Assembly: GCA_002898375.1 (NCBI GenBank) | Contig: BEIN01000020.1 | Coordinates: 1-47,648 of the forward strand | Length of the DNA stretch: 47,648 nucleotides | From: a bacterium HR37 | Lineage (GTDB): Bacteria > Desulfobacterota_D > UBA1144 > Nemesobacterales > CSP1-2 | Direction: 5' to 3' | Part shown: in pieces, positions 3,272-34,452 of the stretch | How positions within the stretch are numbered: the first letter of the stretch is position 1 | Layout: each line of letters opens with the position of its first letter | Translations under genes and position numbers: made by a program | Notes under the pieces: model-generated | Database searches by the model: none | What the model was told of the DNA's origin: nothing | What the model saw: the letters and a program-made list of their open reading frames with translations, nothing else

Positions 3272-4990
3272 ATGATTAAATATACCTGGAGACTAATATT
3301 TGATTCTATTCTTATCGGACTAGTAGGAGCGCTTTCAGCACAGGTATTTAGATCAATGCTACACATATCCCAGAGTATTTTTTTAGGCTGGCTGGCCGGT
3401 TATAAACCCCCAACCTTACTGGAAGCAAGTGGTGAGCTTACAACACAGCTAATTGGAGAGCACGGTCTATGGTTGATCCCTGTTGCCACAACCCTTGGAG
3501 GGCTTATCTCAGGTATCATAGTGTTTAGCCTTGCCCCAGAAGCCGAGGGACATGGTACCGACACGGTTATAAAGGCATTTCACCATGCAGGTGGGTTTAT
3601 TAGAGCAAGACTGGCACCCATTAAATTAATTGCCTCGGCCATTACCATTGGATCAGGAGGAGCAGCAGGGAGAGAGGGCCCCATAGCTTTAATCACTGCC
3701 GGTCTTGCCTCCACATATGCAAGGCTTACCCGTCGTCCAGATGAGGAAAGACGCTTGCTTCTACTTATTGGTATGGCCGCTGGTCTCTCTGCTATATTTC
3801 GCTCCCCTATAGGTACTGCCATATTTGCCATTGAGGTTCTCTACAGGGAAATGGAGTTTGAAACAGGAGCACTCCTATATACCATGCTTGGCTCAATAGT
3901 GGCTTTCACAGTAGATGGCCTGTTTGTAGGCTGGAGTCCTCTTTTTCGTATCCCTTTAAACCTTGGCATCCCAAGCCTAACCGACTATTCCTGGTACATC
4001 ATGTTAGGAATAAGCAGTGGGGTAGTTGCAACTGCTTTACCTTTTGTGTTTTACAACACAAAAAGAGCCTTTGCTCTCATCCCCGTTCTGCCTCATTTTA
4101 AACCAGCTATAGGAGGGCTGGGAATAGGGCTTATAGCGATATTCCTACCCCAGGTACTCGGAGGTGGATACGGGTGGATACAAAAAGCCATTAACGGTGA
4201 ACTCTCCTATAAACTAATGCTAGCCCTGGTCTTTGCCAAGATGCTTGCTCTTAGCCTAACGGTCTCGTCCGGGGGATCAGGTGGCGTTTTTGCCCCAACC
4301 ATCTTTATAGGAGCTATGCTGGGAGGTTTTATGTCCAAGGTGTTTAACCAGACCCCTGCACCTTTTGTAATAGTGGGCATGGCAGCCGTTTTTGGTGGAG
4401 CTGCACGTGTCCCCATTGCCACGCTCCTTATGGTGGTAGAGATGACAGGGGGCTACAAACTGCTTGTACCGGCTGCACTTGCCGTTATGCTAAGCTACTT
4501 AACCCAGGTGAGGCTATCAGGGCTTATCCCGTATAAAAGCCTATACGAAGCCCAGGTTCCTACACGTATCGATTCACCGGCCCACCATCTTGAACACCTT
4601 CAATCAGCACTTCGGCTTATAGGTGAAAAAAGAGTTCCCGTACCACCTACAGTCAGCCATCTTAATCTATATGCACTTCTAACCGCTGGTATACCGGTTG
4701 ACCTGCCCGATGGAAAGCAGTTAAGTATAGGTGTGGTGGGAACACAAAGCCCCTGGATAGATAAATCTCTGGACTCAATCTCTCTATCAACTCCCGAGAT
4801 GAACAAAGAGGTAGAAATCATTGCCATTTTACGCAAGGGACAACTGCTTTTCCCCCACCCTGATAACAGGTTACAGAAAGGGGATCAGTTGCTTATAATA
4901 GCTTCACCACAATCATGGGAGTGGATAACCAGCTATCTCACGCCCATATCAAATGCAAAAGGCACCGGAGCAGTACACAATCCCTCATAA
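3272..4990 (+). CDS. ClC-family chloride channel/antiporter with TrkA-C domain
   Basis: 572 residues, ClC-type membrane core (about 1-430) followed by a RCK/TrkA-C-like regulatory domain (about 480-560, ...EIIAILRKGQLLFPHPDNRLQKGDQLLII). Anion-pore motifs are GHGTD (93-97, replacing the classical GSGIP), GREGP (133-137) with gating Glu135, and SGGSGGVFAPTIFIGAMLGG. The gating glutamate suggests a Cl-/H+ antiporter-like protein. A TrkA-C tail is more usual in cation transporters, but the combination is known in ClC proteins. There is no riboswitch upstream, so I do not call it a fluoride ClC. The ribosome site (GAAAGA) is weak. Confidence 0.9.
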   Translation: MIKYTWRLIFDSILIGLVGALSAQVFRSMLHISQSIFLGWLAGYKPPTLLEASGELTTQLIGEHGLWLIPVATTLGGLISGIIVFSLAPEAEGHGTDTVIKAFHHAGGFIRARLAPIKLIASAITIGSGGAAGREGPIALITAGLASTYARLTRRPDEERRLLLLIGMAAGLSAIFRSPIGTAIFAIEVLYREMEFETGALLYTMLGSIVAFTVDGLFVGWSPLFRIPLNLGIPSLTDYSWYIMLGISSGVVATALPFVFYNTKRAFALIPVLPHFKPAIGGLGIGLIAIFLPQVLGGGYGWIQKAINGELSYKLMLALVFAKMLALSLTVSSGGSGGVFAPTIFIGAMLGGFMSKVFNQTPAPFVIVGMAAVFGGAARVPIATLLMVVEMTGGYKLLVPAALAVMLSYLTQVRLSGLIPYKSLYEAQVPTRIDSPAHHLEHLQSALRLIGEKRVPVPPTVSHLNLYALLTAGIPVDLPDGKQLSIGVVGTQSPWIDKSLDSISLSTPEMNKEVEIIAILRKGQLLFPHPDNRLQKGDQLLIIASPQSWEWITSYLTPISNAKGTGAVHNPS

Positions 4991-25199: not shown

Positions 25200-27860
25200 A
25201 TGGAACCAATTAAAGAAGAAATCTATAAAACACCCCCGGATACGGGATTAAGTAGTGAAGAAGCCAGAAAGAGGTTAAAGCTCTTTGGCCCCAACCGACT
25301 CAAGGAGAAAAAAAAGAAAGGTGCACTCCTTATACTTATAGATCAATTTAAAAGCCTTATACTGTTACTCCTTGCTACTGCTGCTTTCCTATCTTTTATC
25401 TTTAAGGACTGGATAGAGGGTATGGCAATACTTGCGGTTATAGTTCTTAACTCGGGTATCGGGTTCTTTATGGAGATCAAGGCCATACGCTCTATGGAAG
25501 CACTGCACCGGCTCGTTCGCATAACAACAAGGGTTAGACGTGAAGGAAAGGTCCAGGTACTGCCGGCAGAGGAGCTTGTTCCGGGAGATATAGTATTGCT
25601 TGAAGGTGGTGACATAGTTCCTGCCGATATAAGGTTAATTAACTCCTCCAAACTCCGGGTTGATGAATCCCTCTTAACGGGGGAATCTGCTCCTGTAGGT
25701 AAAGGGGTAAAACCGTTTAAAGAGGGAATACCCTCAACAGAACGTCCGGATATGATCTTTATGGGTACAGCAATAACCCAGGGGTCGTGTGAGGGTGTGG
25801 TTGTTGCAACGGGAATGAACACGGAACTAGGCAGAATATCCTCACTTGTAGAAGAAGCAAGGGAAGAAAGGACTCCTCTTGAGAAACGACTTAACCAGTT
25901 AGGGCACAAACTCATCTGGGCAACGCTTGGGCTTACAGCAGCTATTGCCTTTTTAGGAACACTTCGTGGAAAAGAACCAATTCTTATGATTGAAACAGCT
26001 ATTGCCCTTGCGGTAGCAGCCATACCTGAGGGATTACCCATTGTAGCAACAATAACCCTGGCACGTGGCATGCTACGTATGGCACAAAAGAACGCCCTTA
26101 TCAACCGTCTTTCTGCTGTTGAAACCCTTGGGGCAACAAACGTTATCTGTGTTGATAAAACCGGAACGCTTACAGAAAACCGTATGACGGTTACACGTCT
26201 GGTTGTCGGAACCAGAAGCTTTGAGCTAAAGGAGAGCAGAGACGGGAAAAACGGTTTTTTCTGTAATGGGCAAGCTGTTGATCCCCTATCCAACCAGCTT
26301 TTAAGACAAGCACTTGAAATCGGTGTTCTATGCAATAACGCATCCATACAGGAAAGAGCTGAAGGTATAACCAGAACCTCAGGAGATCCGCTTGAGGTTG
26401 CACTTCTAATTGCAGGAGCAAGGGCAGGCATATACAGGGAAAACCTTCTTAAAACCCTGCCAGAAGTAAGAGAGGAGGCTTTTGATCCTGCTTTTAACAT
26501 GATGGCCACCTTTCACAAAGCGGATGGATTCTATACTGTTGCTGTAAAGGGAGCACCCGAATCGGTAATTGAGGTCTGCTCCCACGTACTTGAACCTGAT
26601 GGGAGGAGAGAGCTTTCTCCTTCCCTTCGAAACAGGTGGATTGAGAAAACAAAAGAGCTTGCAGAGGAAGGGTTTCGTGTTATTGCCCTTGCAGCAAAAA
26701 CCGAAGATAGTCTGGATTCCAACCCGTACGAGAACCTTACACTTATCGGTCTTGTAGGTCTTATTGATCCACCACGCCTGGATGTTAGGGAGTCAGTACT
26801 TAAGTGCAAGGAGGCTGGGATTCGAGTTGTTATGGTTACAGGGGATCACCCATCCACAGCACTTAACATTGCGCTAGCAGTCGGGCTGGTTAAGGATAAA
26901 AACACCGAGGTAATACACGGTAAAGACCTAAAGAGCATAAGCTGTTTATCCGAAAAAGAACGCATTCGCATTATAAGAGCAAGCATATTTGCAAGGGTAA
27001 ACCCCAAACAGAAACTGGACATTATCACACTCCATCAGAAAAACGGCTCCATAGTTGCCATGACGGGTGATGGGGTAAACGATGCCCCCGCTCTTAAAAA
27101 GGCTGATATAGGAATTGCAATGGGAATGAGGGGAACCCAGGTAGCGTGTGAGGCCGCTGATATGGTTCTTAAAGATGACTCCTTTTCAACAATCGTTATA
27201 GCTATTGAGCAGGGACGAATAATCTTTAACAACATCCGCAGTTTTGTTCGCTACCTGATTTCATGCAATATCAGCGAAATCATGGTTGTTTCCCTTGCAT
27301 CAATTGCAACCATTCCCCTTCCAATTCTTCCGCTTCAAATCCTCTTCCTAAATCTTGTTACAGATGTATTTCCGGCACTTGCTCTTGGTATGGGTGAAGG
27401 CACCTCCCAGGTAATGAAACAACCTCCCCGTAATCCAGGAGAACCTATAATCAAAAGAAAACACTGGGCAGAAATCTTTGGATACGGAATTCTTATAACA
27501 ATTGCGGTTATAGGGGCTTTAATGATATCTCTTAACTGGCTAGGGATAGAAGAAAAACGGGCAGTTACCGTATCATTTCTTACCCTGTCCTTTGCACAAC
27601 TTTGGCATGTCTTTAACATGCGCGAAAGCAGAGCCAGCTTCCTCTACAATGAGATTACCCTTAATCCCTTCATATGGTATGCGCTTGGGCTATGTAGCGT
27701 CTTAATCCTTCTTGTTGTCTACATTCCTGGTCTTGCTGACATACTTAACCTCTCACAACCAACCAGAAAAGAGTGGGCACTTGTAATGCTTATGAGCATA
27801 ATACCCTGGGTAACAGGACAGGCTATAAAACTCTTAAGAAGAAACCCATCCTCAGGTTAA
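25200..27860 (+). CDS. P2-type cation-transporting ATPase (calcium-pump-like)
   Basis: 886 residues. Order: N-terminal cation-ATPase domain (DTGLSSEEARKRL), actuator TGES (160-163), M4 motif AAIPEGLP (273-280), phosphorylation site DKTGT (319-323), TGDGVNDAPAL hinge, and C-terminal helices with NLVTDVFPALALGMGEG. This is the SERCA/PMR1-like P2A pattern; Ca2+ is the usual substrate, but Mn2+ or other ions are possible. A sigma-54 promoter stands upstream, which is unusual for such pumps. A small Cys-containing protein follows 73 bases downstream. Confidence 0.92.
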   Translation: MEPIKEEIYKTPPDTGLSSEEARKRLKLFGPNRLKEKKKKGALLILIDQFKSLILLLLATAAFLSFIFKDWIEGMAILAVIVLNSGIGFFMEIKAIRSMEALHRLVRITTRVRREGKVQVLPAEELVPGDIVLLEGGDIVPADIRLINSSKLRVDESLLTGESAPVGKGVKPFKEGIPSTERPDMIFMGTAITQGSCEGVVVATGMNTELGRISSLVEEAREERTPLEKRLNQLGHKLIWATLGLTAAIAFLGTLRGKEPILMIETAIALAVAAIPEGLPIVATITLARGMLRMAQKNALINRLSAVETLGATNVICVDKTGTLTENRMTVTRLVVGTRSFELKESRDGKNGFFCNGQAVDPLSNQLLRQALEIGVLCNNASIQERAEGITRTSGDPLEVALLIAGARAGIYRENLLKTLPEVREEAFDPAFNMMATFHKADGFYTVAVKGAPESVIEVCSHVLEPDGRRELSPSLRNRWIEKTKELAEEGFRVIALAAKTEDSLDSNPYENLTLIGLVGLIDPPRLDVRESVLKCKEAGIRVVMVTGDHPSTALNIALAVGLVKDKNTEVIHGKDLKSISCLSEKERIRIIRASIFARVNPKQKLDIITLHQKNGSIVAMTGDGVNDAPALKKADIGIAMGMRGTQVACEAADMVLKDDSFSTIVIAIEQGRIIFNNIRSFVRYLISCNISEIMVVSLASIATIPLPILPLQILFLNLVTDVFPALALGMGEGTSQVMKQPPRNPGEPIIKRKHWAEIFGYGILITIAVIGALMISLNWLGIEEKRAVTVSFLTLSFAQLWHVFNMRESRASFLYNEITLNPFIWYALGLCSVLILLVVYIPGLADILNLSQPTRKEWALVMLMSIIPWVTGQAIKLLRRNPSSG

Positions 27861-31782: not shown

Positions 31783-31812
31783 TTGACCTACTGTGTTTTT
31801 GTACTTTAAAAT
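31783..31812 (+). promoter_or_regulatory. Sigma-70-like promoter of the fluoride riboswitch
   Basis: TTGACC (31783-31788), 18-base spacer, TAAAAT (31807-31812). The predicted start near 31819 falls right at the 5' edge of the aptamer. Confidence 0.55.
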
Positions 31813-31820
31813 TATGTTAA

Positions 31821-31879
31821 AGGTGATGGAGTTCACCTCTAATTACTGTCCCTCCAGGGATAGTTGATAACTCCTACCC
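31821..31879 (+). ncRNA. Fluoride riboswitch (crcB motif)
   Basis: The segment carries the conserved crcB-motif blocks in order: GGTGATGGAGTTCACC (first stem and pseudoknot loop), TCTAATTA, a CTGTCCC/GGGATAG stem and TTGATAACTCCTACC. These match the fluoride riboswitch consensus closely. The 3' strand CTCCTACCC (31871-31879) is perfectly complementary to GGGTAGGAG (31941-31949), which abuts the ATG at 31950. When fluoride holds the aptamer together, this pairing should be prevented and translation allowed. A weak CCTT/AAGG hairpin with five Ts (31920-31936) may add transcription control. Confidence 0.88.
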
Positions 31880-31949
31880 ATAAATCCTAAAGTGAGGTTA
31901 ATGTGATATGTCCTAATAGCCTTTCTAAAGGTTTTTAAAGGGGTAGGAG

Positions 31950-32144
31950 ATGAGTTACTTAAACAGCCATCCAATTACCGGATATTCCTCACGCTTTATA
32001 ACAACTATAGAGCTATACTGTAAATCTGCTAGAAGAAACAGATACAATCTTCCCAGCTTATTAGTAGAGTACGGATTCCCCAAACAAAAGATGGGAGAAC
32101 CAAAGATATGGAGGACTATAAAATGGACCTACAAAATTGCTTAG
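31950..32144 (+). CDS. Unknown 64-residue protein under the fluoride riboswitch
   Basis: 64 residues, basic and aromatic, no membrane segment, no recognised family. GGGGTAGGAG directly precedes the ATG and is the sequence masked by the riboswitch, so this ORF is the direct translational target, either as a functional protein or as a leader peptide. Its 3' end contains the GGAGG ribosome site of the next gene and overlaps that gene by 22 bases, implying coupling. Confidence 0.5.
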   Translation: MSYLNSHPITGYSSRFITTIELYCKSARRNRYNLPSLLVEYGFPKQKMGEPKIWRTIKWTYKIA

Positions 32145-32584
32145 AAATACCTAAGAACCATAGAACTTACCTCTCTATAACCATGCAGGTTCTTGAAGAT
32201 ACAATTTTAGAAGTTGAAAGAATCTTAACAAACAATCCAAGTTGTACCAAGATAATGACCGAGACATTAAATGATATCTCCCATTGCGAGACAACCCTAA
32301 TCTTACAACATATGGCAGAGATAAAGAAGCTAATAAGCCACATAGCTATTAAGCTAAAACTTGAAAAGCAGTTAAGAAAAACTAGAAACGCTATACTAGG
32401 ATCCATGACTGTTCAGAGGATAAATCTGGAGGAGATAAAGTCAAAAAAACTAAGTGGTTATGGAAGCATGCCAGATCAACTTAAAGAATACCTAGATCCC
32501 CAAGTGGATAGAATCATAAACCTGATTGAGGAAATCTGTAAGATTTTGCGGTCAGAAAAGGTAAAGGAATTTAAGGGTAAATAG
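32123..32584 (+). CDS. Helical hypothetical protein in fluoride-riboswitch operon
   Basis: 153 residues, almost entirely helical and charged (for example IAIKLKLEKQLRKTRNAI), with no membrane segment and no recognised family. I start at 32123 because GGAGG lies eight bases upstream; an ATG at 32108 is also in frame. It overlaps the preceding small ORF and ends two bases before the HEAT-repeat gene, so the three are one operon. None of the known fluoride exporters or sensitive enzymes resembles it. Confidence 0.7.
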   Translation: MDLQNCLEIPKNHRTYLSITMQVLEDTILEVERILTNNPSCTKIMTETLNDISHCETTLILQHMAEIKKLISHIAIKLKLEKQLRKTRNAILGSMTVQRINLEEIKSKKLSGYGSMPDQLKEYLDPQVDRIINLIEEICKILRSEKVKEFKGK

Positions 32585-32585
32585 C

Positions 32586-33068
32586 ATGATCCGCTACTTT
32601 TGCCCATCTTGCTGGGCTGAGGTTTCAAAAACGGAAAAAATCTGTCCTTACTGTAAGGAGAGCATTGAAAAATGGGATGAGAAAAGCTTTGTTGAAAAAC
32701 TTATAAGCTCTCTAACCCACTCCGAACGCTCCATAGTCTACAGGGCTTGTTATATTCTAGGTGAGAGACGTGAAAAAACAGCAGTTGAACTCCTTATACA
32801 TCTACTTAATAGCACTAATGACCATTTTCTTAAGGAAGAAATAGTTGAGGCTCTAGGCAAAATTGGAGATGAAAGGGCACTACCTGTATTAATTAACGAA
32901 TTGTTAAACAACCCCTCATTTCTAGTAAGAGGGAAAGCTGCCACCGCTCTTGAAAACTTTAAAGGAAGCAAAGAGGTAATTGAGGCTCTTAAAAGAGCAA
33001 TGGGAGACTGTAGCCGTTATGTTAAAGAATCTGCTCTTAAATCTCTCGATAAATTAAGAAGCAGATAA
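32586..33068 (+). CDS. Zinc-ribbon plus HEAT-repeat protein
   Basis: 160 residues. An N-terminal double zinc knuckle (C6-PS-C9 ... C20-PY-C23) is followed by HEAT/PBS-lyase-like repeats from about residue 40 (SIVYRACYILGERREKTAVELLIHLL; EEIVEALGKIGDERALPVLINELL; VRGKAATALENFKGSKEVIEALKRAM; VKESALKSLDKL). Such proteins usually bind proteins or act as scaffolds. Third gene of the riboswitch operon, two bases after the preceding stop, with no separate ribosome site. Confidence 0.85.
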   Translation: MIRYFCPSCWAEVSKTEKICPYCKESIEKWDEKSFVEKLISSLTHSERSIVYRACYILGERREKTAVELLIHLLNSTNDHFLKEEIVEALGKIGDERALPVLINELLNNPSFLVRGKAATALENFKGSKEVIEALKRAMGDCSRYVKESALKSLDKLRSR

Positions 33069-33252: not shown

Positions 33253-34452
33253 ATGGCATTAACATGGAAAAGAGCGTCGTTGGCATTTGTAGTCCTAATG
33301 GGCATAGTAAGCCTATTTTCTGATATGACGTATGAAGGGGCTCGCAGTATAACTGGACAATTCCTTGCTCTACTTGGAGCTAGTGGAGCAACTATAGGAT
33401 TCATATCGGGATTTGGGGAGTTCATAGGCTATGCAATTCGCCTTGTCTCCGGATACATAGGGGATCGAACTAAGAGATATTGGACAATAATTTTTTTTGG
33501 TTATGCAGTGAATCTAATCTCGGTTCCTCTTTTAGCACTTACAAAACACTGGAAGACAGCAGCTCTGCTAATATTTACAGAACGATTAGGAAAAGCCATA
33601 CGCACACCCATTAGAGATGCAATGCTTTCAAACGCCACTCAGGAAATCGGACATGGATGGGGTTTTGGGCTACATGAATTTCTTGATCAACTTGGTGCAT
33701 TGCTTGGTCCACTAGCAGTTTCGTTAGTACTTTATTTTAAATATAAATACCGCATCTGTTTTCTTTTTCTATTTATACCAGCTATCTCGGCACTTAGTGC
33801 ACTTACCCTATTACGATTACAATATCCAAATCCTAGAGAGTTAGAGAAAACCTCAACTGAATTAGAGATTAAGGGATTTTCCAGAACATTTTGGTTCTAT
33901 TTATTCGCAGTTGCTTTAATTGCTATAAGCTATATTGACTTTCCCTTAATTGCCTACCATCTGGATAGAATCAATATAGCTTCTAGAGAACAAATACCTA
34001 TATTCTATGCAGCTGCTATGGGAGTTAGTTCTGTTTCAGCACTCTCATTCGGATATCTATTTGATCGAATAGGATTTTTTACAACAATTATTGGTTTTCT
34101 TATGCCTATACCCTTTGCTCCTTTGATTTTTCTAGGGAACTTTTACTCTGCTCTTATAGGAGTAGTGATTTGGGGTATAGGTATTGGTGCACAAGAATCA
34201 ATTATGAGGGCAACCGTAGCAAAGATGAGTCCAATTTATAAAAGGGGCTCTGCTTATGGCATATTTCATGCATGGTATGGGCTATTCTGGTTTTTAGGAA
34301 GCACGTTAATGGGAGTTCTTTACGATACCTCAACTTTCATTCTTACTACGTTATCTGTACTAATACAACTCACCTCCATATTTGTGCTTGCTTTTATCTT
34401 CTATGTAACTCAAAAAACCAAAAACAATAGAGTTCAATCTTTTCAAGTATAG
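33253..34452 (+). CDS. MFS transporter
   Basis: 399 residues, about 12 membrane helices. The cytoplasmic loop 2-3 motif GYIGDRTKRYW and the helix-4 segment ERLGKAIRTPIRDAMLS are typical of the MFS group often annotated as multidrug or sugar-phosphate permeases. Substrate unknown. It begins 185 bases after the HEAT-repeat gene, with no clear terminator in the gap, so read-through from the fluoride riboswitch operon is possible. Base composition looks more AT-rich than in the cbb3 region. Confidence 0.85.
   Translation: MALTWKRASLAFVVLMGIVSLFSDMTYEGARSITGQFLALLGASGATIGFISGFGEFIGYAIRLVSGYIGDRTKRYWTIIFFGYAVNLISVPLLALTKHWKTAALLIFTERLGKAIRTPIRDAMLSNATQEIGHGWGFGLHEFLDQLGALLGPLAVSLVLYFKYKYRICFLFLFIPAISALSALTLLRLQYPNPRELEKTSTELEIKGFSRTFWFYLFAVALIAISYIDFPLIAYHLDRINIASREQIPIFYAAAMGVSSVSALSFGYLFDRIGFFTTIIGFLMPIPFAPLIFLGNFYSALIGVVIWGIGIGAQESIMRATVAKMSPIYKRGSAYGIFHAWYGLFWFLGSTLMGVLYDTSTFILTTLSVLIQLTSIFVLAFIFYVTQKTKNNRVQSFQV

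Follow-up and report, generated by a model that had tools for sequence, protein, structure and literature searches.

We report that the window, by which we mean the whole stretch of 47,648 nucleotides of bacterial DNA that was analysed, carries a genuine fluoride riboswitch and that this is probably a working ON switch governing a shortened fluoride-stress operon. The riboswitch itself is ordinary and the interest lies in the genes behind it. Two of these, a helical protein (HEL) and a zinc-ribbon/HEAT-repeat protein (ZH), also accompany fluoride switches in bacteria of only distant kinship, and are therefore probably new proteins of the fluoride-stress response and not chance neighbours of the switch. 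The features on which the argument rests are the following.

31783-31812, forward strand: promoter-like site, TTGACC-18-TAAAAT, matching at 10 of 12 positions, which would place the RNA start near 31819, on the aptamer's edge
31813-31883, forward strand: fluoride riboswitch aptamer (RF01734, crcB motif), an end-to-end match to the Rfam covariance model
31871-31879, forward strand: CUCCUACCC, the 3' strand of the aptamer and putative OFF-state partner of the ribosome-binding region
31941-31949, forward strand: GGGUAGGAG, the ribosome-binding region immediately 5' of the leader ATG
31950-32144, forward strand: leader open reading frame of 64 codons, overlapping the start of HEL
32123-32584 (alternative start 32108), forward strand: HEL, a helical protein of 153 residues, whose family is unnamed and turns up repeatedly in fluoride-riboswitch clusters
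32586-33068, forward strand: ZH, a protein of 160 residues with a zinc ribbon (CxxCW...CxxC) and HEAT repeats (HEAT_2, E = 8e-21)
33253-34452, forward strand: MFS transporter (MFS_1, E = 3e-28), 184 bases beyond ZH

An earlier note, made by reading the sequence, had proposed a crcB-motif aptamer here, and the covariance-model check bears it out: RF01734 matches over its full length at 46.1 bits against a gathering threshold of 34 (E = 1e-9) and is the sole RNA family to score above gathering in the window. The conserved core is present (GAUGGAGU ... ACUCCU) and the two pseudoknot strands, GGAGU (31829-31833) and ACUCC (31870-31874), are complementary to each other and align to the consensus. 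The sigma-70-like promoter of the same note fares less well. The site exists and its position suits the aptamer, but five such sites were found against 4.4 expected from shuffles, no excess, and so the match alone is weak evidence. Roughly 4 kb 5' of the switch there is a P-type cation ATPase gene (25200-27860), and similar-looking ATPases adjoin fluoride clusters in two other loci (L046, 14583-17303; L122, 9056-11719).

The expression platform appears to act on translation. CUCCUACCC is complementary to GGGUAGGAG over 9 bp with no mismatch, and this pairing with the start region of the leader and that in the pseudoknot are mutually exclusive. Equivalent start-site pairings are seen in two genomes of the same family, over 8 bp in G005 and over 9 bp including a G-U pair in G004, where the pairing sequence is altered and the pairing is retained. 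Each pairing length by itself is matched in 1-13% of shuffles, so that the argument rests on the recurrence of the pairing exactly at the start codon. In the minimum-energy fold, which cannot hold a pseudoknot, the start-site helix coexists with both aptamer stems, and this modelled fold is expected to represent the OFF state. Because CUCCUACCC can pair with GGGUAGGAG, fluoride should open translation. A transcription terminator was considered for the window platform (CCUUU/AAAGG with a U run) and rejected, as the stem holds only two G-C pairs and is not common to both relatives. Platforms differ between loci and the ON logic is common to them: in the Bacteroidota loci L012 and L047 the 3' strand of the aptamer is part of a terminator-like hairpin with a U run behind it, whereas the crcB start codon is what this strand covers in L046.

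The genes downstream are as the earlier note had described them, judged by open reading frames and domain matches: a 64-residue frame, a helical protein, a zinc-ribbon/HEAT protein and, after a gap, an MFS gene. The note had counted all three of the first as possible new fluoride-response proteins, which is supported for HEL and ZH, found in switch clusters of other genera and of another phylum, and not for the 64-residue frame. The latter shows no codon-position bias in the window, and its length varies among the three genomes (64, 88 and 77 codons) with little likeness past the first codons; poorly conserved and lacking a coding signal, it was rejected as a fluoride protein and is probably a leader that couples the switch to the translation of HEL.

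HEL probably starts at 32123, since a GGAGG stands at 32110-32114 and its relatives begin at the same point. It is 52% identical to the copy in the corresponding operon of G005 and 51% to that of G004, its best-conserved stretches being an N-terminal NHxRxLSxTxxxxE-like segment and a C-terminal one around LxxSxxLxxYG. No relative of note was found in Pfam, NCBIfam or the PDB. AlphaFold2 gives a helical bundle of low confidence (pLDDT 66), a second run on an Ignavibacteria HEL brought no improvement (pLDDT 65.5), and a Foldseek search of the PDB returned no significant match, the ferritin/Dps-like ones being weak. ZH is 68% identical to the operon copy of G005, 56% to that of G004 and 31-38% to the HEL-adjacent copies of the Ignavibacteria; the ribbon CxxCWxE...CxxC is invariant, the scores of the zinc-ribbon models fall short of their cut-offs, and the HEAT part, long in the family of the window, is short in copies from the Ignavibacteria. 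The MFS transporter is probably the last gene of the operon, a placing against whose certainty the 184-base gap counts. No terminator-like site was found on the forward strand between ZH and MFS, and no convincing relics of deleted genes were seen there. The transporter is 61-63% identical to those at the operon ends of G004 and G005 (G004, 61%) and 46% identical to one within the fluoride operon of L046.

As the earlier note had observed, no known fluoride target lies in the operon: crcB, a fluoride-type CLC, enolase and pyrophosphatase are all missing from it. A CLC gene elsewhere in the window (3272-4990) bears the motifs GREGP and GGVFAP, which we take to be those of the chloride type, and it lacks the character of a CLC-F. 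The genome of the window (G000) has a second fluoride riboswitch, of 55 bits, which leads crcB and a DUF190 gene, so export is covered elsewhere in the genome. A single pyrophosphatase gene and a single enolase gene are also found elsewhere in G000.

The two relatives supply a fuller form of the operon, with the order switch-HEL-ZH identical. In G004 the switch and leader are followed by pyrophosphatase, HEL, ZH, a HEAT protein, HEL2, enolase and two coiled-coil proteins, and then by two DUF6062-like proteins, a phosphoesterase, a dynamin-like GTPase, a hemerythrin-like protein and an MFS transporter. G005 has the same order, but with an added DUF47 (PhoU-like) protein and without the hemerythrin-like gene at that spot; its MFS (L008:7582-8764) is seemingly split into two overlapping frames, by a frameshift or an assembly error. 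In both, a second switch on the opposite strand leads a Na+/H+ exchanger and a universal stress protein. Pyrophosphatase and enolase are classical fluoride-inhibited enzymes; a fluoride-resistance operon is expected to hold an exporter and/or inhibited enzymes under the switch, as those of G004 and G005 do and that of the window does not. In the window's lineage pyrophosphatase, enolase, the phosphoesterase and the GTPase are all missing from the operon. For the GTPase, no ortholog was found anywhere in G000, only a distant paralog. Given the identity of its MFS to those of the relatives, the window form resembles the long operon minus its middle. From these sequences, it reads as a trimmed version of the larger fluoride operon, and we infer the short form to be derived. 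The earlier note had offered, as an alternative, that the original exporter gene was lost and the switch captured new genes. The loss of an original gene is supported in a changed form: pyrophosphatase is the first real gene in G004 and survives in G005 as a remnant between the leader and HEL (L008:18077-18206) with its start and a short C-terminal stretch kept and its middle missing, and enolase is also absent here, but the lost gene was not evidently an exporter, none being seen in the HEL/ZH operon of the three genomes. The capture of new genes by the switch is not supported, as HEL, ZH and MFS all belong to the relatives' larger operon.

The same proteins recur in another phylum. On an Ignavibacteria chromosome (CP054675.1) a fluoride riboswitch is followed by a dynamin-like GTPase with a HEL relative directly behind it. 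HEL profile searches covered the phylum of this genome (396 genomes) and its class (294 genomes), and strong matches were found in 18 genomes in all, 15 of them Bacteroidota. RF01734 scores above gathering within about 10 kb of HEL in 12 of the 18 (G000, G004, G005, G061, G068, G241, G506, G648, G618, G630, G615 and G627); a further genome, G647 (L069), not counted in the 12, has a sub-threshold match of 33.2 bits immediately 5' of a phosphoesterase-ZH-HEL operon, and G615 (L072) has, besides its crcB switch, a sub-threshold copy of 30.4 bits 5' of the same three genes. The arrangements vary: switch-GTPase-HEL (L012, L047, L066), switch-GTPase-phosphoesterase-ZH-HEL (L073), switch-phosphoesterase-ZH-HEL (L071) and switch-CrcB-...-HEL (L046, L067). 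The HEL-ZH pair of the window is also found behind a switch in G004 and G005, and in several Ignavibacteria genomes. No switch was found near HEL in five of the 18 genomes, whose surroundings hold crcB (G158), an antiporter with UspA (G496), phosphoesterase-ZH (G621), the end of a contig (G180) or none of crcB, antiporter, UspA and phosphoesterase-ZH (G566). Among the 294 genomes, 15 have HEL and 11 of these carry RF01734 anywhere, while of the 279 without HEL 47 do so (Fisher p = 5e-6, kinship ignored). HEL relatives are absent from the plasmids searched, which yielded only distant dynamins, and the profile gave no match in very small samples of the phyla of G060 (17 genomes) and G058 (one genome).

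ZH also stands behind switches in G503, G522 and G525, in which HEL was not found. These three genomes have single clusters (L118-L121, with L118-L120 read for their genes) of at least four serial fluoride riboswitches, each at the head of a small operon of its own, and in G503 and G522 the switches lead, one after another, a GTPase, a run from DUF6062 to ZH, crcB with DUF190 (in G503 fused or frameshifted) and NADH-dehydrogenase-type membrane subunits. In several genomes DUF6062 (PF19538) proteins are encoded inside fluoride-riboswitch operons or immediately after them (L107:1622-2380, L108:690-1532, L112:644-1438 and L118-L120), often beside crcB, and DUF6062 is a candidate fluoride-linked domain of unknown function. 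In the fluoride operon of L046 a CYTH-domain protein (PF01928; 9243-9785) separates DUF190 from HEL. MutS-domain proteins are found behind fluoride switches at L046:1820-3148 and L071:2404-5510, which agrees with the mutS link of PMC2864571.

Other accounts of the window operon can be given. With its true target gone, the switch might have been stranded before genes of no relation to it, HEL and ZH having nothing to do with fluoride, as the missing known targets and the loss of pyrophosphatase in one relative would suggest. This is largely refuted by recurrence: HEL and ZH stand behind switches in varied gene orders, both in many genomes of the Bacteroidota and in three genera of the window's family, when any one gene would be expected to have a fluoride switch within 10 kb in about 1-2% of cases, and we give such an accident almost no credence. 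It could also be held that the switch still folds and that the remaining genes are irrelevant to tolerance, which would depend on the crcB copy elsewhere. That the operon is shortened, that its leader has no coding signal, that the switch-crcB locus is separate and that the GTPase and phosphoesterase are missing all fit such decay; against it, HEL, ZH and MFS remain intact, with identities of 51-68% to the relatives' copies, and both the aptamer core and the start-site pairing are preserved, so we think it distinctly improbable.

A broader role carries rather more weight with us, though we still judge it unlikely: HEL, ZH and the dynamin-like GTPase may serve envelope or acid stress, with the fluoride switch as one input among several. 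HEL copies without a nearby switch exist (L048, L068, L074, L075), both dynamin-like proteins and YfcE-type phosphoesterases belong to general families, and the GTPase is weakly similar to LeoA/LeoBC models. Most of the switch-less copies nevertheless adjoin crcB, an antiporter with UspA, or phosphoesterase-ZH, and no other regulatory RNA recurs directly 5' of HEL operons.

Under the preferred reading, a fluoride-controlled and shortened stress operon, fluoride and Mg2+ would fold the aptamer and lock the ACUCC part of CUCCUACCC in the pseudoknot, which would free the ribosome site at 31941-31949. The leader would then be translated, with translation continuing into HEL and ZH, and the transcript probably includes the MFS gene. 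Fluoride would be expelled by CrcB, which has a separate switch at another place in the genome, and HEL and ZH would help the cell to tolerate what remains. The binding of partners is common among HEAT repeats and zinc ribbons, and we therefore suggest, tentatively and with a good deal less than even confidence, that HEL and ZH form a cytosolic adaptor or scaffold pair for other members of the fluoride regulon, a proposal based on domain type and neighbours, for which the partners in the relatives may be the dynamin-like GTPase and the phosphoesterase. A wider proposal, to which we come only a little short of even belief, is that HEL, ZH, the dynamin-like GTPases, the YfcE-type phosphoesterase and DUF6062 make up an unrecognised fluoride module of at least two phyla, protecting or repairing a damaged structure such as the membrane, and acting alongside ion export and the replacement of inhibited enzymes.

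In its full-length aptamer above threshold, its 5' leader and its platform overlapping the 3' end of the aptamer, the window switch is like the known members of RF01734. Its downstream genes, however, lie outside the recorded targets, which are exporters, Na+/H+ antiporters, pyrophosphatase and enolase (PMC11139923), UspA (PMC5533749) and, from a 2010 report, mutS and formate hydrogen lyase genes under the crcB motif (PMC2864571). The best tested parallel is the fluoride-resistance operon of Enterobacter cloacae FRM, ppaC-uspA-eno-gpmA-crcB (PMC5533749). There too one switch leads many genes, and the relatives' long form shares pyrophosphatase and enolase with it and has UspA and an antiporter under the neighbouring switch; it differs in the addition of HEL, ZH, the HEAT protein, DUF6062 proteins, the phosphoesterase and the dynamin-like GTPase, and the window form differs further in having none of the classical enzymes and no crcB. 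The switch-led GTPases of the relatives carry the Dynamin_N domain, as do bacterial dynamin-like proteins (PF00350), and the operon GTPase gives a weak, distant match to the PADLOC LeoA/LeoBC models; unlike such proteins, they stand under fluoride switches with HEL, and the window operon lacks them. Literature linking HEL-type, HEAT, DUF6062 or dynamin-like GTPase proteins to the fluoride switch was not found, and the supplement of the primary list (Baker et al. 2012) may mention them.

The genes under fluoride riboswitches may be read as an inventory of the damage that fluoride does and of how the cell copes with it. Export is understood, as is the replacement of inhibited enzymes; the other parts of the regulon are not. 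Recurring unnamed proteins under these switches, including a membrane-type GTPase in the relatives, would point to a further fluoride target or defence. HEL, ZH and the operon GTPase group are, on their genomic context, candidate new fluoride-response families, whose biochemical role we infer; HEL, ZH and DUF6062 thereby gain a first functional clue, and the long operon would bring a dynamin-like GTPase into the fluoride response.
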